DNA of 11,871 nucleotides from Bacteroidota bacterium (GTDB lineage: Bacteria; Bacteroidota; Bacteroidia; Flavobacteriales; Flavobacteriaceae). Where the stretch lies: the NCBI GenBank assembly GCA_006227965.1, contig SBFL01000337.1, positions 1 to 11,871 of the forward strand, given 5' to 3'. The position numbers and the translations under genes were made by a program. The notes beneath the pieces were generated by a model. That model did no database searches. It was given only the letters and a program-made list of their open reading frames with translations, and was not told the origin of the DNA. Below are positions 1,203-11,223 of this stretch, piece after piece (position 1 is the first letter of the stretch; each line of letters opens with the position of its first letter).

Positions 1203-2102
1203 TTGACCAGGTCTTCCAGAATAGTGTTTAAGCAGGCTCCGGGGAAGCCCGATCTATGGCGCATCCGCAAAGAGATCTATAGGCACATGCTGCAAACCCG
1301 TGGCTGGAAGTACAGGTCATTCCTCAGGTTCCTGCGGTTCTTTAAATACATCAGCTTTTCCCCCACACGGGGCTCTTTTCTGGAATACTACTATGTGATG
1401 ATGCGCTACCTCGACGACGTGGTGGACGGGGATGCGCCCCTGCCGGAAGGCTACACAGACCCAAAAGATTACATTCAGGACAAGATCGCTTTTTCACGCC
1501 ACCTTGCCGGCCCACGGGATGGGGCTGACCACCTCATGCTGCACTGCTTCAGTCTGGGGGAAAAATTCGGTCAGGAATTCCAGCAGGAGACCCAGGACAT
1601 CCTGCATTCCCTCCTTTTCGATGCCAAACGCCGCGGCACCTGGGAGGTTTTTCCCGCTGACATCCTGCGTGAACACTTCCACAAGATGGATATTCGGGGT
1701 ACCATCCGGGCCACGCTGAAGATTTTTGGGGACGAACCGGACCAGTACCCGATCCTGGAACCCCTGGGGGTGGCATGCCGGTATCAGTACGACATCGAAG
1801 ACGTCAGTACTGACCTGGCTGCCGGGTATGTAAACATCACCCGGGAAGAAGTGGACGCCCTTGGGATCCGACCTGAAGAGCTCCGGGACCCGGCCTCTTC
1901 AGGTGTGAAGCGCTGGGTGCAAAAACACGCCCTGGAGGGGCTGGAATTACTGGAAAAACACAGGACAAAGGTTACAGAAGGTCGCTTTTCCCCTCTTGCA
2001 CGGGCAACCTTCCCGGTAGTTTACGGCTGGCCGGCCCGAAAAGTATTCCAGAATACGCTGCATGGGACCTCCCTTCACCAAAACTTCATACACCAGACAT
2101 GA
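1203..2102 (+). CDS. Divergent squalene/phytoene synthase family prenyltransferase
   Basis: The family joins two prenyl diphosphates head to head (squalene, phytoene, dehydrosqualene), with Mg2+ held by two Asp-rich motifs. Here the first motif is DDVVD at residues 71-75 within YLDDVVDGD. The second is DVSTD at residues 200-204, within YDIEDVSTDLAAGYVNI. The second aligns with the usual NxxRDxxED...GRxYxP segment, but Asn becomes Tyr196, the Arg before the Asp becomes Glu199 and the last Glu becomes Thr203. The metal-binding Asps are kept while diphosphate-contact residues differ, so substrate or product may be unusual. At 299 residues it has family length and no C-terminal membrane anchor. 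The start is TTG at 1203; GTG at 1224 is possible, and the first in-frame ATG (1287) leaves only about 42 residues before the first motif, which looks short. Its TGA overlaps the next ATG (ATGA, 2099-2102). The family call is firm and the product is unknown. Confidence 0.85.
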   Translation: MTRSSRIVFKQAPGKPDLWRIRKEIYRHMLQTRGWKYRSFLRFLRFFKYISFSPTRGSFLEYYYVMMRYLDDVVDGDAPLPEGYTDPKDYIQDKIAFSRHLAGPRDGADHLMLHCFSLGEKFGQEFQQETQDILHSLLFDAKRRGTWEVFPADILREHFHKMDIRGTIRATLKIFGDEPDQYPILEPLGVACRYQYDIEDVSTDLAAGYVNITREEVDALGIRPEELRDPASSGVKRWVQKHALEGLELLEKHRTKVTEGRFSPLARATFPVVYGWPARKVFQNTLHGTSLHQNFIHQT

Positions 2103-2941
2103 AACATACCCGGGACACCCGCAAAAAAGGCTTCCACCTCACCAAATGGTTTCTGGACTTCGCAGGGGAGGATGGCAGCGTTTTTATATGCTACGCCGCA
2201 CGCCTCACCTGGAAAGGGATCACGGTTCCTTATACACATATCCTGTGGCAGCGTCCGGGCGAGCCCACAACCCAAAAGACCAGGTATACCAGGGCCCGCA
2301 TGCCGGTGCAGGATGGCAGGCAGCTCATCTGGGGGGACCCCCGCTGCCAGGTTGCCGGCATCTGGGAAACGAGCGTCGATCCGTTAGAGGCTCGGTTGTT
2401 TGAATCCGGGCAGGGATATCTGGACTGGCACTGCCTGCATCCCTGCTCCAGGGTCACCCTGGAATTTGAGGGGAGTCAATACATAGGGGAAGGGTATGCT
2501 GAGGTGCTCCACATGACCATCCCCGCCTGGGAAATGCCCATGCGCGAATTGCGCTGGGGCCATTTTCTCTCGCCAGGTCACTGGGGGGTGTGGATCGAAA
2601 TCAAAGAAGAGACAGGTCCCCGTCAATGGGTCTGGTGGGATGGGAAGCCGGAGGCCGGTTGCCGGATTTCGGACTCGGAAATCTATATCCCCGGAGCCAA
2701 TGGTTCGCTCCTCCTGAACCGCGGAAGGGTCCTGGAAGCGGATAAGAAGATTCTGCAAATAGTTGGAAAACTGGTGCGTTACCTGCCCGGATTCCGGAAG
2801 GTGATCCCGGAGTCCTTCCTCATGGCTGATGCCCATAAATGGTACAGCCAGGCTCGTATGGACTTGGGCCCCAAAGAGACATTCACAGGCCGGGCCATTC
2901 ATGAGTTTGTTAATTTCAACCCCGCTGCAGATGGTGCTTAG
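2099..2941 (+). CDS. CrtC/AttH-like lipocalin-fold protein (putative isoprenoid hydratase or cyclase)
   Basis: The protein has 280 residues, with no signal peptide or membrane helix. It is rich in Trp, Gly and beta-type sequence. Recognisable pieces are KWFLDFAGEDGS (16-27), a GEGYAEVLHM segment (130-139), LRWGHF (151-156) and WGVWIEI (162-168). The GxGYAE...P...P...LRWG pattern is what I associate with the AttH/CrtC group, two stacked lipocalin-like barrels that includes carotenoid 1,2-hydratase (hydroxyneurosporene synthase). Known members act by protonating an isoprenoid double bond or by cyclisation. Its place directly after a prenyl-synthase gene, with a 4-base overlap, fits a tailoring role on that product. 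Its end overlaps the ABC ATPase start by 11 bases. The family call is by motif memory only. A generic lipocalin-like carrier is an alternative. Confidence 0.55.
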   Translation: MKHTRDTRKKGFHLTKWFLDFAGEDGSVFICYAARLTWKGITVPYTHILWQRPGEPTTQKTRYTRARMPVQDGRQLIWGDPRCQVAGIWETSVDPLEARLFESGQGYLDWHCLHPCSRVTLEFEGSQYIGEGYAEVLHMTIPAWEMPMRELRWGHFLSPGHWGVWIEIKEETGPRQWVWWDGKPEAGCRISDSEIYIPGANGSLLLNRGRVLEADKKILQIVGKLVRYLPGFRKVIPESFLMADAHKWYSQARMDLGPKETFTGRAIHEFVNFNPAADGA

Positions 2942-3530
2942 GGCGGAACATATTTACAAATCCTTTGGGAAAAACCAGGTGCTGCGGGACCTTTTCCTGG
3001 AAGTTGACCCGGGCAGCCTCTGCGGTATTGTAGGTGAGAATGGGTCCGGCAAGTCTACGCTGCTCAAGATCCTGGTGGGGGAATGGAAACCCGGGAGCGG
3101 GACTGTCCAGATCTCCGGGAGGCTCGGGTACTGCCCCCAGCGCGTAACACTTTACCCCCAGTTGTCCGTGAACGAGCATTTTAGCTATTTCGGGGCAGCT
3201 TATGGTATGACCGGTCCGGAACAGAGAAATAGTCAGGCACATTTGCTGGAATATTTCAATTTCGGGAAATACCTGGGGGAAAAAGTGGCCCACCTCAGCG
3301 GCGGGACTGCCCAGAAACTGAACCTCAGCCTGGCATTGTTGCACAAGCCAAAATTACTGATCCTTGACGAGCCTTACAGCGGATTCGACTGGGACACCTA
3401 CCAGCGCTTCTGGGGATATGTAAGCAAATTACGAGAGGAGGGATGTGCCATTCTCGTGGTAAGCCACTTTATTACGGAAAAAGAACTATTTGATCGGATC
3501 TACGAAATGAAAAATGGCCAGTTGCAATGA
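2931..3530 (+). CDS. ABC transporter ATP-binding subunit
   Basis: A compact 199-residue ATPase that drives the adjacent permease. All nucleotide-binding elements are present: Walker A GENGSGKST (35-43), Q-loop Gln70 in GYCPQ, signature LSGGT (122-126), Walker B LLILDEP (142-148) with catalytic Glu147, D-loop SGFD (150-153) and switch His179 in VVSHF. It is shorter than most ABC-2 ATPases because it ends soon after the H-loop and has no C-terminal regulatory extension. The frame is open upstream to an ATG at 2829, but that part lies inside the previous gene. The ATG at 2931 gives the normal family start (VLRAEHIYKSFG) and overlaps the previous gene by 11 bases. It ends with an ATGA overlap (3527-3530) with the permease. 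The substrate cannot be read from the ATPase. Confidence 0.93.
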   Translation: MVLRAEHIYKSFGKNQVLRDLFLEVDPGSLCGIVGENGSGKSTLLKILVGEWKPGSGTVQISGRLGYCPQRVTLYPQLSVNEHFSYFGAAYGMTGPEQRNSQAHLLEYFNFGKYLGEKVAHLSGGTAQKLNLSLALLHKPKLLILDEPYSGFDWDTYQRFWGYVSKLREEGCAILVVSHFITEKELFDRIYEMKNGQLQ

Positions 3531-4291
3531 ACCCGGACCGCTTAAAGATCAGTTTTGTAATGACTCTTCGAATGTTGCTGAGGCGGCATATCGTGCTCCT
3601 GCTCCTGCTGGTGATCCCGGCGATTTTCCTGGGGATCGTCAGCCTGACCACTTCAGACCGGCCGCTGCCTTTCCGCCTGGCATCCCTGGAAGAGGAGCCC
3701 GTGGTGTCGATACCTGAGGAAGGGATCCACTTTGTCTTCTTTGCCGTGGCTTCGGTGGGATTCCTTCTTTCCTTCCTCGCCCTGAACCTCATCCAGAATA
3801 ACCGGCACGTAACCCGGCGTTTGGTCCTCTGTGGCTATTCTCCCACCGAGCTTCTGACCTCCAAATTGGCTGCCCTACTGGTTTTCATCCTGTTGGTCTC
3901 CACCTATGTGGGGCTCCTGACAAACATCCTCTATGAAATAGACCACCTGTGGTTGTTCATCTTCAGCCTTGTGTCTATTGGTTTTGTCTACGGCTGCTAC
4001 GGACTGCTGGCGGGCAGTCTTATCCGCGGCGAACTGGAGGGCATCCTGGTGATCGTACTTCTGGTGAACATCGATGTGGGTTGGTTGCAGAATCCGCTTT
4101 TTTATGAAGGGGCCCAGAACCAGGAAGTCATTCGCTATCTCCCGGCATATTTTCCCTCCCAGGCTTCCCTAATCGCCGCCTTTACGGATTACGGGGTCAG
4201 TCATGCCATCGGCAGTGCCTATCTCTACGGGGCCGGTTTCCTCCTGCTCAGTCTGCTGATCTATTACAAAACCATGAAAACCTACCGATGA
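3527..4291 (+). CDS. ABC-2 type transporter permease
   Basis: A 254-residue integral membrane protein with about six hydrophobic segments: 21-41, 67-90, 112-133, 139-162, 170-186 and 228-246. The order is that of ABC-2 permeases, with one helix, a short soluble loop (44-66, acidic), a cluster of helices, a second soluble loop around 187-227 with RYLPAYFPSQASLI, and a last helix ending in a basic tail. Such permeases pair with ATPases like the one encoded just upstream and usually export lipids, polysaccharides or drugs. It shares ATGA overlaps on both sides (3527-3530 and 4288-4291), so all partners are probably made from one mRNA. The specific substrate is unknown. Context makes a lipid or isoprenoid the leading guess. 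Confidence 0.85.
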   Translation: MNPDRLKISFVMTLRMLLRRHIVLLLLLVIPAIFLGIVSLTTSDRPLPFRLASLEEEPVVSIPEEGIHFVFFAVASVGFLLSFLALNLIQNNRHVTRRLVLCGYSPTELLTSKLAALLVFILLVSTYVGLLTNILYEIDHLWLFIFSLVSIGFVYGCYGLLAGSLIRGELEGILVIVLLVNIDVGWLQNPLFYEGAQNQEVIRYLPAYFPSQASLIAAFTDYGVSHAIGSAYLYGAGFLLLSLLIYYKTMKTYR

Positions 4292-6159
4292 AAAAGATTC
4301 CTCCTACTCTTCAGAAATTCCTGTACGGGTTTGCCTTCATGGTCCTTGTCCCGCTGGGCCTGGTTTTTTGGGCGGGTATTACAGAAAGCCATGTGCGCTA
4401 CCCAGGTCTTAAATCCGAAGCGGCGGGAGTATTGCTGCTCCTTTCAGGTGGGTTGCTTATGCTATGGTCCATGGGTTCCCTGATGACGAAAGGCGGAGGC
4501 CTGCCCATGAATGCCTTTCCTCCCCGGAACTTTGTGGAATCAGGTCCTTACGGACTCTTCCGACACCCTATTTACTTGGGTTTTGGAGCTATGGTGGCTG
4601 GATACTTCCTCTACACCGGTTCAGCCAGCGGGCTTTGGATGGTCACGCCCCTGACCATCCTGGGGATGATTGCCCTGGTCCTTGGCTTTGAAGGGCCGGA
4701 CCTGAAAGAGCGCTTCCCTGGGAAAAAGCTCAGCCCCCTGTTTGGGCTGTCGGAGGCGAACAGCCATGTCCCCGGCCCTGACAAAAGATTGGTTAGTCTC
4801 GGCAGCGTTTTAGTGCTAATGATTACATTCAACTACCTCACTGCAAATACAGACCGCAGTTTTCCATTGGAAGAGATCGCTTCTCTTTTTTCAGGAGGCC
4901 GGGACCGGAGTGCCTGGGGATACCTGAATCTGATTCCGCTGCTGGCGGTACCTTTTGTGCTTAAACGAAATTCGGATTTGCGCTCATGGACCCTCTGGTC
5001 TTCCACTGCCCTGCTGGCCGGGTTCCTCTGGACCCTGGTTTGCCGGGAACTCTGTGGGAACTCATGGGGTTTCCCCGGCGGGCATATCCTGAACGTCCCG
5101 CTGTATATTGTCCTGATCGCCTTGTTTACCCCCTTTCGGAATTATCGGAGCGCCTACCTGATTACGGGGGTTGCATACCTGCCTTTCCTGGCTTTACAGG
5201 TCGTTTCCCAGGATAACTTTGTTAACAGTCTGATTTTATCAGTGCTCCTGTTCCTGGCTGTGGTAAATGCAAGTGTCCTGTGGGGGTGGATCCGGCGGCT
5301 TTCAGAGCGGCTTGCCAATTCATGGAAGGAATGGGTTTTCGGCCGGGTGCGGGTCATCAACCACGGGTTTTATGTTGGGGGCGGGGCCCTTCTCGGCATC
5401 CTTATGGCCGGCATCCTGGCAGGTGAGGCCTATGCATGGGCGCTGTTGGCATTTGTGGTCACCGTGGTCATCTTTTCCGCTATCTGGGCCCAGGTGATAG
5501 AGGGTTCCGAAAAGCTGAAACGCCCTTTCGGTTTCTACGGGGCCCTCGTGGGCATCCTCTTTGCCAGTCTTCTGGTCTGGGCACTGGGTTTTAACCCCTG
5601 GGTGCTGATCGGGGCAATATCCGTCATGATTCCCTGGGTACAAGCGATTGGCAGGGTACGTTGCCTGATCAACGGGTGTTGCCACGGCATGAAGACAGAG
5701 AATCCGGAAGTGGGTATCCGTTACTTCCACCCGCGTTCTCGGGTTTGCAGCATCTCAGACATGAAAGGTGAATGGCTGCACCCGACACCGCTCTACTCAA
5801 TTCTATGGTTATTGCCTGTCGGCTTTATACTCTTGGCCCTGTGGCATGGGGGTGCAGCGCCCAATTTCATTTTCGGCCTCTACCTATTTTTGACCGGTAT
5901 CGGCAGGTTCGTTGAGGAAGCCTACCGGGGGGAGGTGCAGACCCCGATCCTTGGAAAACTTCGCCTTTACCAATGGACCGCGGCCCTTTCGGTTCTTGTG
6001 GGTATCCTGTTCACCATGCTCCAGGTACAAACCCCGGCCCTTTCTCCCGGGTTCAGTATTGAGATCCTGCTGGCCGCCCTGTCCGGAGGCCTCTTTGTGT
6101 TCTTTGCCATGGGGGTGGATTTCCCGTATTCCAACAAACGGTTCTCACGGCTGGTCTGA
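4288..6159 (+). CDS. Membrane fusion protein: ICMT-like methyltransferase + middle region + Lgt-like domain
   Basis: A 623-residue polytopic protein. Residues 1-150 resemble isoprenylcysteine carboxyl methyltransferase/PEMT-type enzymes: helices at about 10-30 and 45-65, then the SAM-binding signature GPYGLFRHPIYLG (86-98), and FEGPDLKERFPG (134-145) in place of the usual ExxLxxxFG. Residues 165-340 are a hydrophobic region I cannot assign with confidence; it holds CRELCGNSWGFPGGH (252-266). Residues 350-580 resemble prolipoprotein diacylglyceryl transferase: FGFYGALVG (414-422), GRVRCLINGCCHG (455-467), HPTPLYS (498-504) and GRFVEEAYRGE (539-549). The canonical His of the FHGG-type motif is Tyr417, and the Asn of GRxGNF is Cys459, so ordinary lipoprotein lipidation is doubtful. 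Free-standing Lgt is usually under 350 residues. The gene overlaps the permease by ATGA and ends the operon, 90 bases before a terminator. Methyl or lipid transfer to an isoprenoid is my inference. Confidence 0.75.
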   Translation: MKKIPPTLQKFLYGFAFMVLVPLGLVFWAGITESHVRYPGLKSEAAGVLLLLSGGLLMLWSMGSLMTKGGGLPMNAFPPRNFVESGPYGLFRHPIYLGFGAMVAGYFLYTGSASGLWMVTPLTILGMIALVLGFEGPDLKERFPGKKLSPLFGLSEANSHVPGPDKRLVSLGSVLVLMITFNYLTANTDRSFPLEEIASLFSGGRDRSAWGYLNLIPLLAVPFVLKRNSDLRSWTLWSSTALLAGFLWTLVCRELCGNSWGFPGGHILNVPLYIVLIALFTPFRNYRSAYLITGVAYLPFLALQVVSQDNFVNSLILSVLLFLAVVNASVLWGWIRRLSERLANSWKEWVFGRVRVINHGFYVGGGALLGILMAGILAGEAYAWALLAFVVTVVIFSAIWAQVIEGSEKLKRPFGFYGALVGILFASLLVWALGFNPWVLIGAISVMIPWVQAIGRVRCLINGCCHGMKTENPEVGIRYFHPRSRVCSISDMKGEWLHPTPLYSILWLLPVGFILLALWHGGAAPNFIFGLYLFLTGIGRFVEEAYRGEVQTPILGKLRLYQWTAALSVLVGILFTMLQVQTPALSPGFSIEILLAALSGGLFVFFAMGVDFPYSNKRFSRLV

Positions 6160-6249: not shown

Positions 6250-6276
6250 AAAAACCCCGGCTTACCCGGGGTTTTT
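6250..6276. terminator. Bidirectional intrinsic terminator
   Basis: A perfect 11-bp stem, five A then CCCCGG (6250-6260) against CCGGGG then five T (6266-6276), with a 5-base loop. The A and T tracts make it work in both directions. It serves the five-gene operon from the left and the convergent DUF1508 gene (stop at 6298) from the right. Confidence 0.9.
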
Positions 6277-6297: not shown

Positions 6298-6627
6298 TTA
6301 TTTCGCCATTTCCACCGTGGCATCGGGAGCATTAGTCTTCACGGATGCGATTCCATTTTCCATCGCTTCCTCAGAGGAATACATCTGGCTGGTGCCTATA
6401 ACCTGGGCATTGGCAGCTTTAAGATTGAAATAGGGACGGCCGTCTTTGGCAACCCTGCGCTCAAATTTGCCGTCATCTGATGAGTTGGTGCGGACCGACT
6501 CGATCCCGTTATCACAACCAGCTTTGGAAGCATATTCTTGGCTGCTTAGGATGATCTGGCCGTTTGCGGCTTTAAGGCTGAAATGGAATTGTCCCTTGTC
6601 GTTTTCTTGGATCACAAATTTTCCCAT
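6298..6627 (-). CDS. YegP-like protein with two tandem DUF1508 repeats
   Basis: A 109-residue soluble protein made of two copies of the DUF1508 unit. Copy one (about 2-49) has GKFVIQ...GQFHFSLKAANGQIILSSQ-Y and GIESVRTN. Copy two (about 52-101) has GKFERR...GRPYFNLKAANAQVIGTSQMY and GIASVKTNA. The repeated LKAANxQxIxxSxxYxS...GIxSVxxN pattern is diagnostic of this family, which is widespread and of unclear function. It starts at the ATG read from 6627 down, with an A-rich leader and no clear Shine-Dalgarno. It is convergent with the upstream operon, shares its terminator, and is bracketed by the two direct repeats at 6171 and 6854. No secretion signal is seen. Confidence 0.92.
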   Translation of the reverse strand: MGKFVIQENDKGQFHFSLKAANGQIILSSQEYASKAGCDNGIESVRTNSSDDGKFERRVAKDGRPYFNLKAANAQVIGTSQMYSSEEAMENGIASVKTNAPDATVEMAK

Positions 6628-7499: not shown

Positions 7500-7550
7500 T
7501 GGGTCACAAGGCTCACCAAGGTGGAACCAATCAAATACAAGAATAAACCC

Positions 7551-8981
7551 ATGAAAAAAAACATCCTGGCAGTCCTTGGGGTTGCCCTTATCGTATCCTG
7601 CGGGACGAACCAGCAGAAGGATCAGGAATTTATGGTGCTCAAAGGCGCCACCGCCTATGACGGTAATGGTGGTGTAATTTCCAACAGCGTGGTAATCATC
7701 AGGGAAGGAAAAATTGAAGCCATCGGGGATTCCTCCCTGGAAATCCATGGCAATTCAACGCAAATTGACCTTTCCGGAAAATTCATTGCCCCGGGCCTGG
7801 TGGATGCCCATGTGCATTTTGCACAAACCGGGTTTTTCGATGGCAGACCCGATGCGCTTGACCTTCGGGACAGTATCGATTACAACATGCTACAGTCCCA
7901 CTTGCAAAATTATCCCGATCGGTATTATGAGAGTTACCTGCGCTCCGGCGTGACCGCTGTCTACGATGTGGGAGGTTATCCCTGGAGCATTGGACTGCAG
8001 GTTTCGGCTGAATACAACCTGAACGCCCCACATGTGGCCGCAGCGGGTCCGTTGATCACCCCGGTATCCGATCAGAACCTGCTCCCACTGAATACCCCGG
8101 GTCAAAAACAACTCGTGAACCTAAGATCACCTGAATTTGGCCGGCAGGTGGTCCGGCAGAACTCGAGTCTGGGGTCCACGGGCATTAAGATCTGGCAAAT
8201 AGCCCTTGATGACCCGGTCTTTATGGAAGGTTTAAGGGCGGTAGCGGACGAGGTGGCCCTGCAGGGTAACAAACTCATTGTACATGCCACCGGTCTGGAC
8301 CAGGCCAAGGAGGCCCTGAGGCTGGGTGCCAAAGTGCTGGTGCACAGCGTGGATGACCAGCCCGTGGATGAAGAATTTATAACCCTGGCTAAGCAGGCAG
8401 GGGCCCTCTACTGCCCCACCCTTGTTGTAATGCGGGGCTATTTCAACGCCTTTAAGTCCCTGAAAGGCGGATTTTTGCTTGAAGACCCTAACAACACAGT
8501 AGATGTCGACACCAGGAAGCTGATCCAATCAGCAACCCTGTTTTACGACTACCTGCCCAACCCGGAAGGGTACAGCTCTATGATCACCAATTACGAGAGC
8601 TATGTCAACAGTCTTGAAAAGACTATGGCTGAAAACATCATGCGCGTCCACCAGGCAGGTATCCCTATTGCCGTATCTACAGATGCTGGAAACCCGGGCA
8701 CACTTCACGGGATTTCGATTTACGATGAAATGGAAGCCATGCAGCAGGCGGGTATACCCGCGGCGGACATCCTCGTGATGGCCACAAAGAACGGAGCCCG
8801 GACCATGGAAAGGGAAGGTGATTTTGGAACCCTGGAAGCTGGAAAAATGGCAGATCTCATCGTCCTGGACGCAGATCCCGCGGCAGACATTCGAAACATG
8901 AGATCCATCTCACATGTGATGAGGGGTGGCCTGCTGCGGCCCGTGGACCAACCTTTTGAAGATAACCCCAAAGATGAATAG
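7551..8981 (+). CDS. Secreted amidohydrolase-family lipoprotein (imidazolonepropionase-like)
   Basis: A 476-residue metal-dependent hydrolase anchored as a lipoprotein. The signal is MKKNILAVLGVALIVSCG with the lipid-bearing Cys at 17. The amidohydrolase elements follow in order: the N-terminal beta part (KGATAYDGNG...REGKIEAIG), then metal-binding HVH at 87-89 in APGLVDAHVHF. Next are Lys213 in GIKIWQ, His245 in KLIVHATG, His265 in VLVHSVDD, Asp378 in STDAGNPG, and a C-terminal GTLEAGKMADLIVLD. All usual metal ligands are therefore present and it should be active. Family members cleave amide or cyclic amide bonds, including dipeptides such as Xaa-Pro, but the substrate cannot be read here. 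An in-frame GTG at 7521 would add ten residues and spoil the signal peptide, so ATG 7551 is chosen. Confidence 0.9.
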   Translation: MKKNILAVLGVALIVSCGTNQQKDQEFMVLKGATAYDGNGGVISNSVVIIREGKIEAIGDSSLEIHGNSTQIDLSGKFIAPGLVDAHVHFAQTGFFDGRPDALDLRDSIDYNMLQSHLQNYPDRYYESYLRSGVTAVYDVGGYPWSIGLQVSAEYNLNAPHVAAAGPLITPVSDQNLLPLNTPGQKQLVNLRSPEFGRQVVRQNSSLGSTGIKIWQIALDDPVFMEGLRAVADEVALQGNKLIVHATGLDQAKEALRLGAKVLVHSVDDQPVDEEFITLAKQAGALYCPTLVVMRGYFNAFKSLKGGFLLEDPNNTVDVDTRKLIQSATLFYDYLPNPEGYSSMITNYESYVNSLEKTMAENIMRVHQAGIPIAVSTDAGNPGTLHGISIYDEMEAMQQAGIPAADILVMATKNGARTMEREGDFGTLEAGKMADLIVLDADPAADIRNMRSISHVMRGGLLRPVDQPFEDNPKDE

Positions 8982-9040: not shown

Positions 9041-9766
9041 GTGTTACGCTTTCTCCGACATATCCGAAAACAAGTTATGGAACAGAAGAACATCCGTAAA
9101 TACATCCTCTATGCCCTTGGTGAAATCCTGCTGGTGGTTATAGGGATCCTGATCGCCCTGCAAATCAACACCTGGAATGAAGAACGGAAAAACGCCCTGG
9201 AGGCCAACCGTCTCCTAAAAGACCTTTTCGAAGAAGTCGAGATGGCGGTAAGCAGCCGGGAGGAATTCCTTAGGGAAGACATAGCGGTGCAGGATGGGAT
9301 TGCCTCGGCCCTTAACAAGATATTCTCAAAGGGCCTTGCAGAGTTAACTTCTGAAGAATGTGAGTCCATTTTTTACTCGCACATGATCCGGTGGGACCCC
9401 TTTAACCTTACCACCCTGGATGAAATGATCACGACGGGGAAAATTTCCATCCTGTCGGATTTGGAGCTTCGAAATGCCCTGCTGGAATTCCGGAATTTGG
9501 CCAACAGCAACAGGGAACGCCTGAACCAAACCGTATTTGAAGCCAATGTCCTGGTAGATGATTTTCCCCATCTTATTATCCGGGACTGGGATATCGCCAG
9601 CCAGGAGTCTGTGTTCACTTGCGACATAAAGGCCATGCGCGAAAACCGGCACTTCCTGGCTCAGCTACAAAGTAACCGGGGGCGTTTAGGGGGGCCTATC
9701 AACGCGGCAAGAAGGGAACTGGATGCGCTGGTGCTAATACGGAACAACCTAAGAGAATCATTATGA
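9041..9766 (+). CDS. DUF6090 family single-pass membrane protein (second copy)
   Basis: A 241-residue protein starting at GTG 9041. The GTG start gives the normal family N-terminus (LRFLRHIRKQVMEQ). The next in-frame ATG, at 9077, would remove most of the basic segment. One membrane helix spans about 22-43 (YALGEILLVVIGILIALQ), followed by INTWNEERKN. The rest is charged and likely helical or coiled, for example LLKDLFEEVEMAVSSREEFL. It shares the helix and the NWNE-like motif with the gene at 214-1002, but the C-terminal parts are divergent. It lies 59 bases after the amidohydrolase, so co-transcription is possible. Function is unknown. Confidence 0.88.
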   Translation: MLRFLRHIRKQVMEQKNIRKYILYALGEILLVVIGILIALQINTWNEERKNALEANRLLKDLFEEVEMAVSSREEFLREDIAVQDGIASALNKIFSKGLAELTSEECESIFYSHMIRWDPFNLTTLDEMITTGKISILSDLELRNALLEFRNLANSNRERLNQTVFEANVLVDDFPHLIIRDWDIASQESVFTCDIKAMRENRHFLAQLQSNRGRLGGPINAARRELDALVLIRNNLRESL

Positions 9767-10275: not shown

Positions 10276-11223
10276 ATGATCTATAATAATTCAGGCAGGA
10301 TGCGTAACCTGTTGCTTGCAGGAATGTGTTTATTCCTTGCTTTAAAAACCATTGCCCAGCCAAACTATCCTGGTAGTCCCGAGAAGGCAGAAATTGTTTA
10401 TGCGGATCTCAGAAATTTTGTCGACGCCTACAAAGAGCTTCAATCGAATCCGGACACCCTTGCGGTGTTACAAAAAATGTACTTCGACCGGGGGTCTGAA
10501 GGCCTAAAGGAATTTATCTCCCGACACCAACTAACTCCTGAACTCATGAGGGATGCCATGGCTGCCAATCCGGACAGATATGCCCTGATGCCGGATTTTC
10601 TCTCAAACATCAAGGAGGTGGAGGCAATTTATCAGGACCTCATGAAGGCATTTGGGGAGGTATTGCCAAATGCCATGTATCCGCCCACCTACCTCTTGGT
10701 GGGGGCAAACCGAGGCATCGGACAGGCCTCCCTTGTGGGTCAGCTCATCACCATAACCCGTGTGAGCGATAACCCAGAAAAATTGCGAAAGCTCATTGTC
10801 CATGAATTGTCCCATTTTCAGCAGGCAATGGCCATGGGAGGGCAGAAATACGTAGCGCTTTATTCGACCCCGGACAACATGCTGGGGCTATGCCTCAGGG
10901 AAGGCGGGGCGGAATTTGTCACCTCCCTTGTCCTGAATGATATTACCCAAAGTGCCGCACTTCAGTATATTGAGGAAGGGGAAGATCGTCTGAAAAAACA
11001 ATTTTTGGAGGACCTGAAGGTCCAGAACAGTGATTTCTGGTTGTGGGCTTCCCTGGAACAGCAAGAACACCCAAAGTTGCTCGGATATGCCATGGGGTAT
11101 AAAATCTGTGAATCCTATTTTAAAAAGGAGGGTGACAAAATTGGGGCACTTCAGGAAATCCTACGCATGGATAATGAACAGGCTTTTTTGGAAGCAAGTG
11201 CTTATTTTGAGGACTCCCCCTGA
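10276..11223 (+). CDS. Secreted HExxH zinc metalloprotease-like protein (DUF2268-like)
   Basis: A 315-residue protein with an N-terminal signal sequence (hydrophobic 11-25, ending TIAQ) and no lipobox. The metal site is HELSH (176-180) in LIVHELSHFQQ. REGGAEF (208-214) is about 30 residues later, with Glu209 or Glu213 as the probable third zinc ligand, and GYAMGYKICESYF (270-282) lies near the C-terminus. This order of HExxH, EGxAEF and a late GYxxGY is what I associate with DUF2268/predicted Zn-dependent proteases. The mature protein should be periplasmic. ATG 10276 is used. ATG 10300 (MRNLLLAG) would give a more compact signal peptide and is a real alternative. The next gene begins 21 bases later, so the two are probably co-transcribed. 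Confidence 0.75.
   Translation: MIYNNSGRMRNLLLAGMCLFLALKTIAQPNYPGSPEKAEIVYADLRNFVDAYKELQSNPDTLAVLQKMYFDRGSEGLKEFISRHQLTPELMRDAMAANPDRYALMPDFLSNIKEVEAIYQDLMKAFGEVLPNAMYPPTYLLVGANRGIGQASLVGQLITITRVSDNPEKLRKLIVHELSHFQQAMAMGGQKYVALYSTPDNMLGLCLREGGAEFVTSLVLNDITQSAALQYIEEGEDRLKKQFLEDLKVQNSDFWLWASLEQQEHPKLLGYAMGYKICESYFKKEGDKIGALQEILRMDNEQAFLEASAYFEDSP

Follow-up and report, generated by a model that had tools for sequence, protein, structure and literature searches.

The window analyzed here is a stretch of 11,871 nucleotides (contig SBFL01000337.1) from a metagenome-assembled genome (MAG) of a Flavobacteriaceae bacterium, which is 74.8% complete. The window carries an operon of five consecutive genes, encoding a squalene/phytoene-synthase-like protein (gene 1), a protein with a predicted AttH/CrtC-type fold (gene 2), a short ABC ATPase (gene 3), an ABC-2-type permease (gene 4), and a three-domain fusion ending in an Lgt-like domain (gene 5). 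The five-gene set is an accessory trait, rare and patchily distributed, with a conserved gene order. Genes 2 and 5 are its invariant core, and gene 1 is an add-on. The operon is assembled from known families, among which its Lgt-fold enzyme does not qualify as an Lgt. The operon product is probably a modified lipid and is probably isoprenoid-derived. We tentatively favor a reading in which the scattered operon is dedicated to a single modified membrane lipid, made by the prenyl-diphosphate mechanism proposed below. An earlier note on this DNA knew of no described pathway with the five-gene set, and we likewise found no description of it among the titles and abstracts listed by our literature searches, which covered few subscription papers.

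Distribution and nested forms of the operon

The gene 1 profile retrieved at least 22 loci from named genomes, with 15 Bacteroidota loci among the matches listed, to which the following counts refer. All five genes occur in order in ten of the 15 (L001-L009 and L011); L002 and L004 are near-identical, and L003 has one additional gene between genes 1 and 2. Two loci, L010 and L013, contain genes 1-2-5 without the ABC genes, and L012 has gene 1 alone. The contig of L014 stops inside gene 1, and L019 consists of broken pieces of genes 1, 2, 3, and 5. The order kept across distant Bacteroidota bears out the claim that the set is a conserved operon and rules out chance neighbors.

The trait is uncommon in every sample of genomes. 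Of 296 genomes sampled from the phylum, seven have gene 5 at full length; three more of the ten matching genomes have partial copies and were left uncounted. Full-length gene 5 also occurs in 6 of 245 genomes of another class of the phylum (four shared with the 296-genome set), and a seventh genome of this sample has gene 5 divided over two contigs. In the host's class, gene 2 turned up in three of the 395 genomes sampled. A strong gene 1 match exists in 2 of the 296 genomes, in both of which genes 2 and 5 adjoin; the profile matched 26 genomes, and the 24 weak-only matches (best E 1.8e-5 to 8.3e-4) were taken as ordinary SQS_PSY proteins. The earlier note had proposed a search for the gene order across Flavobacteriaceae, and the set is not a general trait of that family: among 119 close relatives, gene 5 is found only in the host itself, which identifies the operon as an accessory, patchy trait. 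The nine congeneric genomes listed gave no gene 5 match. The scattered occurrence suggests putative horizontal transfer. Gene 5 had no match among 72,556 plasmid records. A protein 96% identical to gene 2 is assigned to a Robiginitalea sp. MAG, so the host probably belongs to that genus or lies close to it.

The surroundings of distant gene 5 matches reveal nested operon forms: genes 2+5, genes 1+2+5, and all five. Genes 1-2-5 are adjacent in L043, and genes 2-5 only (core-only loci) occur in L044-L048, L094, and L095. Gene 1 is absent genome-wide from all five core-only genomes searched (G102, G129, G252, G110, and G155); G820 and G746, which hold L094 and L095, were left out of this search. 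Locus L087 contains genes 2-3-4-5, and its 92%-complete genome has no gene 1. Since genes 2 and 5 occur without gene 1, the prenyl enzyme was added to the core and is not the integral member that it had been taken for. Trees built for genes 2 and 5 (21 loci, compared by topology) both separate core-only operons from the rest as their main division and have several groupings in common, as expected for a pair inherited together. The trees and the alignment of the gene 5 middle domain left out L004, as a near-copy of L002, and L012, L014, and L019, which have no complete gene 5.

The operon coordinates of the earlier note were confirmed by a check of open reading frames (ORFs), and all four gene overlaps lie at the positions claimed (Table 1). 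The junctions of genes 1/2 (2099-2102), 3/4 (3527-3530), and 4/5 (4288-4291) all read ATGA. The open frame of gene 3 extends from 2829, and the alignment of its relatives begins at the ATG at 2931, so the gene 2/3 junction is an 11-base overlap, ATGGTGCTTAG, at 2931-2941. The start codon of gene 1 is TTG 1203 or GTG 1224; the latter fits the 292-amino-acid length of the database copy P0001.

Table 1 Genes of the operon and domains of gene 5 in the window
Feature	Positions	Strand	Basis
Gene 1, squalene/phytoene-synthase-like	1203..2102	+	SQS_PSY profile, Asp motifs
Gene 2, AttH/CrtC-fold protein, invariant core	2099..2941	+	predicted structure
Gene 3, short ABC ATPase, 199 aa	2931..3530	+	ABC_tran
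Gene 4, ABC-2-type permease, 254 aa	3527..4291	+	ABC2_membrane_3
Gene 5, methyltransferase/PAP2 remnant/Lgt-like fusion, invariant core	4288..6159	+	PEMT and LGT over cut-off, 12-sequence alignment
Gene 5, PEMT/ICMT-type SAM methyltransferase domain, residues 45-143	4420..4716	+	PF04191, 38.6 bits against 25
Gene 5, degenerate PAP2 domain, residues 144-338	4717..5301	+	homology to core-only middles; triad lost
Gene 5, Lgt-like domain, residues 336-580	5293..6027	+	LGT over Pfam cut-off, Lgt fold

Composition of the operon proteins

Gene 5 had been described as a fusion of methyltransferase and Lgt-like parts. Both domains score over their Pfam cut-offs, and that part of the description stands; a third, middle domain, a degenerate PAP2 domain, had been missed. 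The middle of the window gene 5 has no Pfam match. The middles of core-only gene 5 proteins score over the cut-off of PAP2_3 (PF14378) in five of five scanned, and by hhalign they are homologs of the middle found in the window (P 97.9, E 4.6e-13; at most P 0.3 for the controls, a reversed copy and two other gene 5 regions). The His-His-Asp triad of PAP2 is complete in all seven core-only proteins and absent from all 14 proteins of the other loci, 13 from gene 1 operons and one from L087. In the window protein, the triad columns hold Ile, Asn, and Ser. Among the matches listed, 120 database relatives of gene 5, judged as sequences alone, include 117 without triad letters and three with one. The structure model of gene 5 has a pLDDT of 78.3; its fold comparison (VIA) was effectively limited to residues 336-584, and the middle was identified by profile. 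The RHPIY-G motif region of the methyltransferase domain is conserved in a 12-sequence alignment.

The C-terminal part of the gene 5 model, compared with 5AZB (PF01790), is predicted to have the fold of Lgt with seven transmembrane segments, and gene 5 aligns with the canonical Lgt proteins of the host genomes (P 95.6, E 1.3e-8). Residue numbers of E. coli Lgt were transferred by motif from the excerpted part of PMC4728403. Arg143, Arg239, and Glu243 of Lgt, a network serving diacylglyceryl transfer, correspond to Arg456, Arg540, and Glu544 of gene 5, which are invariant in 12 of 12 sequences, and Arg246 corresponds to Arg547 by spacing alone. His103 of the HGGL motif is replaced by Tyr417, and, in the signature motif, Gly145 is replaced by Arg458 and Glu151 by Cys464. 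According to the same excerpts, none of the E. coli Lgt variants H103A/N/Q/R/Y complemented, and G145A/I/V and E151A/Q were inactive (PMC4728403). A separate LGT gene is present in eight of the nine genomes holding gene 1, for which gene 5 is thus ruled out as the housekeeping Lgt; genome G002 has the operon copy only. Alternatively, gene 5 could be an Lgt that modifies the cysteines of exported proteins with an unusual lipid, either prenyl-derived or methylated. We regard such lipoprotein lipidation as highly improbable, given the three altered positions, with replacements such as H103Y inactive in E. coli, the separate LGT genes, and the lack of a conserved neighbor fit to be a dedicated substrate in the flanks compared. 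Other LGT-like paralogs beyond the operon copy are encoded at G155:C14:407740-408441 (L042) and G008:C362:38035-38775. The excerpted part of the lipocone paper mentions Lgt in another context only (PMC12419801).

Gene 2 has no match in Pfam (E 0.1) or NCBIfam and falls outside the CrtC family PF07143. Its AttH/CrtC-type fold, which the earlier note had proposed, was found by predicted structure comparison only. The fold group comprises AttH (2ICH, PF09410), CrtC, kievitone hydratase, 25-phosphosteroid lyase, and CghA-Fsa2, and thus includes prenyl-group hydratases and one lyase. The catalytic residues of CrtC are His239, Trp241, Tyr266, and Asp268 (PMC4717167). Gene 2 has a His268 conserved in 19 of 21 and 40 of 41 proteins, together with Trp, Tyr, and Asp20, none of which could be aligned with those of CrtC. 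In its excerpted part, the AttH paper associates the family with ABC transporters and proposes roles in lipid or isoprenoid metabolism and lipid transport (PMC2954199), which by analogy fits the operon.

Gene 1 scores 16.3 bits against SQS_PSY, below the Pfam cut-off of 26, and two of its relatives are barely over it (29.4, and 26.1 counting neighbors in frame). The gene 1 profile aligns with ten canonical SQS_PSY proteins over 213 columns (P 81.6, E 1.1e-5). Both Asp-rich motifs are kept: all 33 aligned sequences share Asp71, 75, 197, 200, and 204. Judged from this alignment and the five invariant Asp residues, gene 1 is plausibly an active diphosphate-ionizing enzyme. In sequence searches against solved structures, gene 1 matched phytoene synthase and HpnC weakly, and neither genes 2 and 5 nor their profiles gave a usable match. 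Seven of the nine genomes holding gene 1 also encode a distinct SQS_PSY protein with a stronger match, which rules out gene 1 as the ordinary synthase in these seven and agrees with the earlier view of an enzyme distinct from the ordinary one. The sole SQS_PSY match of G008 is gene 1 itself, G002 has none, and the 74.8%-complete host MAG has no PF00494 match, gene 1 included. Another SQS_PSY gene is present in six of six genomes that have 2-5 or 1-2-5 loci and were tested for it, a count without a phylum baseline, and four of them have two adjacent copies. Relatives of gene 1, 29-41% identical, occur at seven loci of candidate phyla radiation (CPR) bacteria and archaea (L015-L018 and L020-L022).

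The composition of genes 1, 2, and 5 recalls the tailoring of carotenoids or triterpenoids, in which gene 1 would make a C30 or C40 backbone, gene 2 would hydrate it like CrtC, and gene 5 would methylate it like CrtF, with desaturation encoded elsewhere. A synthase of this kind, a CrtC-like fold, and a methyltransferase follow the order of spheroidene-pathway chemistry, and the kept Asp motifs of gene 1 and the conserved His of gene 2 agree with such a route. However, the methyltransferase domain of gene 5 is of the PEMT/ICMT kind and not of the CrtF kind, neither the PAP2 part nor the Lgt part fits into the tailoring of carotenoids, and gene 2 lies outside the Pfam CrtC family altogether. As the earlier note stated, no phytoene desaturase or lycopene cyclase is encoded alongside, and the ten window proteins scanned with Pfam include neither a desaturase nor a lycopene cyclase. 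We consider a variant carotenoid route quite improbable.

Gene 3 scores 93.9 bits against ABC_tran (cut-off 25), and its P-loop, LSGGT, and DEP(Y)SGFDWD stretches are kept in ten operons. Gene 4 is just below the cut-off of ABC2_membrane_3 (28.3 bits against 31.6, E 1.2e-6), with a mean column identity of 72% in the same number of operons. By sequence, an ATPase with nucleotide-binding motifs adjoining an ABC-2 permease is the predicted layout of an ABC exporter.

Proposed pathway and its alternatives

In the mechanism that we propose, the pathway substrate would be a prenyl diphosphate. The PAP2 domain of core-only systems would strip the substrate of its phosphates at the membrane. In the branch of the window, gene 1 would ionize the diphosphate in place of PAP2, and the PAP2 site would have decayed as a result. 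Gene 2 may perform a hydration, cyclization, or elimination on the isoprenoid, which the methyltransferase domain of gene 5 would then methylate. The Lgt-like domain may use phosphatidylglycerol as the donor of a diacylglyceryl group and attach this group to something other than a lipobox cysteine, and genes 3 and 4 would move a product over the inner membrane. The active site of Lgt is thought to face the periplasm, according to the excerpted part of PMC4728403; under this proposal a cytosolic gene 1 product would need to be moved through the membrane, a task that would account for the ABC genes. A more specific version, which we consider unlikely, is that the Lgt fold has been repurposed, with gene 5 placing the diacylglyceryl group of phosphatidylglycerol on the methylated, gene-2-modified isoprenoid, and with PAP2 and gene 1 as evolutionary alternatives for handling the prenyl diphosphate. 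As far as our searches show, such a hybrid diacylglyceryl-isoprenoid lipid has no bacterial description.

In favor of the prenyl-diphosphate mechanism are the conserved gene order and the nested forms, the genome-wide lack of gene 1 in the five core-only genomes searched, the PAP2 triad kept in core-only proteins alone, the Lgt fold of gene 5 with its preserved Arg and Glu residues, the prenyl-active relatives of the gene 2 fold, the invariant Asp residues of gene 1, and the separate SQS_PSY and LGT genes in most genomes holding gene 1. Several observations weigh against it. Gene 1 is present without the ABC genes in L010, L013, and L043. The swap between gene 1 and PAP2 corresponds to a single split in the tree, and in L087 both gene 1 and the PAP2 triad are missing. 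A PAP2_3 domain might instead have phospholipids as substrates or catalyze phosphotransfer. Gene 1 also occurs outside the proposed pathway, since the genome of L012 has gene 1 and lacks gene 5, and the seven CPR and archaeal loci have no gene 2 or 5 in the flanks examined, some of which are very short.

It is also conceivable, though rather unlikely in our view, that the system is not isoprenoid: genes 2 and 5 would remodel a phospholipid or glycolipid, gene 2 would carry lipids and not act as an enzyme, and gene 1 would be a recruited helper with prenyl chemistry secondary. The seven loci with the core but no gene 1 point in this direction, as do the phospholipid-acting members that the PEMT, PAP2_3, and Lgt families are generally known to have. 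The lipid transport suggested for the ABC-linked AttH family in the excerpted PMC2954199 is consistent with a carrier role. However, gene 1 adjoins the core in 12 of the 13 readable Bacteroidota loci among the matches listed, the fold relatives of gene 2 with known chemistry work on prenyl or polyene chains, and all six tested 2-5 or 1-2-5 genomes have another SQS_PSY gene (again with no phylum baseline).

If the prenyl-diphosphate reading is correct, the Lgt fold would have a second chemistry and Bacteroidota an added lipid class. The existence of 2+5, 1+2+5, and complete five-gene forms, nested in one another, would suggest the route by which the pathway was assembled and would link the loss of the phosphatase site to the recruitment of a prenyl enzyme. 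Database proteins named prolipoprotein diacylglyceryl transferase may do something else.

Flanking genes and relation to known systems

Related operons include additional genes. A LysA-like gene lies between genes 1 and 2 in L003 (4061-5254), after gene 5 in L011 (15071-16207), and before gene 2 in L087 (1418-2575). The three proteins are 46-67% identical to one another and score 237-248, below the NCBIfam lysA cut-off of 297.9. In the AxKAN stretch, where diaminopimelate decarboxylases of solved structure have the PLP-binding Lys, all three have Met, and by sequence they are likely pseudo-decarboxylases. A sulfotransferase/APS-kinase fusion begins 14 bases past gene 5 in L009 (14939-16558) and is perhaps a tailoring enzyme for the operon product.

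Pfam matches in the window identify a DUF6090 protein upstream of the operon (124-1002), a two-copy DUF1508 protein convergent with it (6298-6627, reverse strand), an amidohydrolase with a lipoprotein-like start (7521-8981), and a predicted Zn protease of the DUF2268/GldB type (10276-11223). By eye, the ORF at 9041-9766 and L002:13077-14114 start with stretches resembling that of the DUF6090 protein. Scans of the window found one promoter (3.5 in shuffles) and ten terminators (7.8 in shuffles, standard deviation 3.3). A perfect inverted repeat seen by eye at 6251-6275, AAAACCCCGG, a 5-base loop, and CCGGGGTTTT, separates gene 5 from the DUF1508 gene; it is a possible shared terminator, and is absent from the terminator-scan list.

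Genes 1 and 2 and the domains of gene 5 each resemble a known system and depart from it. Gene 1 matches SQS_PSY (PF00494) weakly but consistently and keeps the Asp motifs, whereas the window protein is below the family cut-off, and seven of nine gene 1 genomes have a separate canonical copy. Gene 2 belongs by predicted fold to the group of AttH, CrtC, kievitone hydratase, 25-phosphosteroid lyase, and CghA-Fsa2, at 7-10% identity and without a Pfam match. The methyltransferase domain of gene 5 scores over the PEMT cut-off and has the RHPIY-type motif of PEMT/ICMT enzymes (PF04191, PF04140), from which it differs by its fusion to the PAP2 and Lgt parts. The core-only middle domain resembles PAP2_3 in score and intact triad, whereas in the window the triad is gone and the domain is lodged between two other enzymes. 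With Lgt, gene 5 shares the predicted fold, the GR and GRF-EE motifs, and the HPT-LY stretch. It differs from Lgt in its fusion to two domains, the altered HGG, Gly145, and Glu151 positions, an invariant GCCHG motif, and its presence beside a separate LGT gene in eight of nine hosts.

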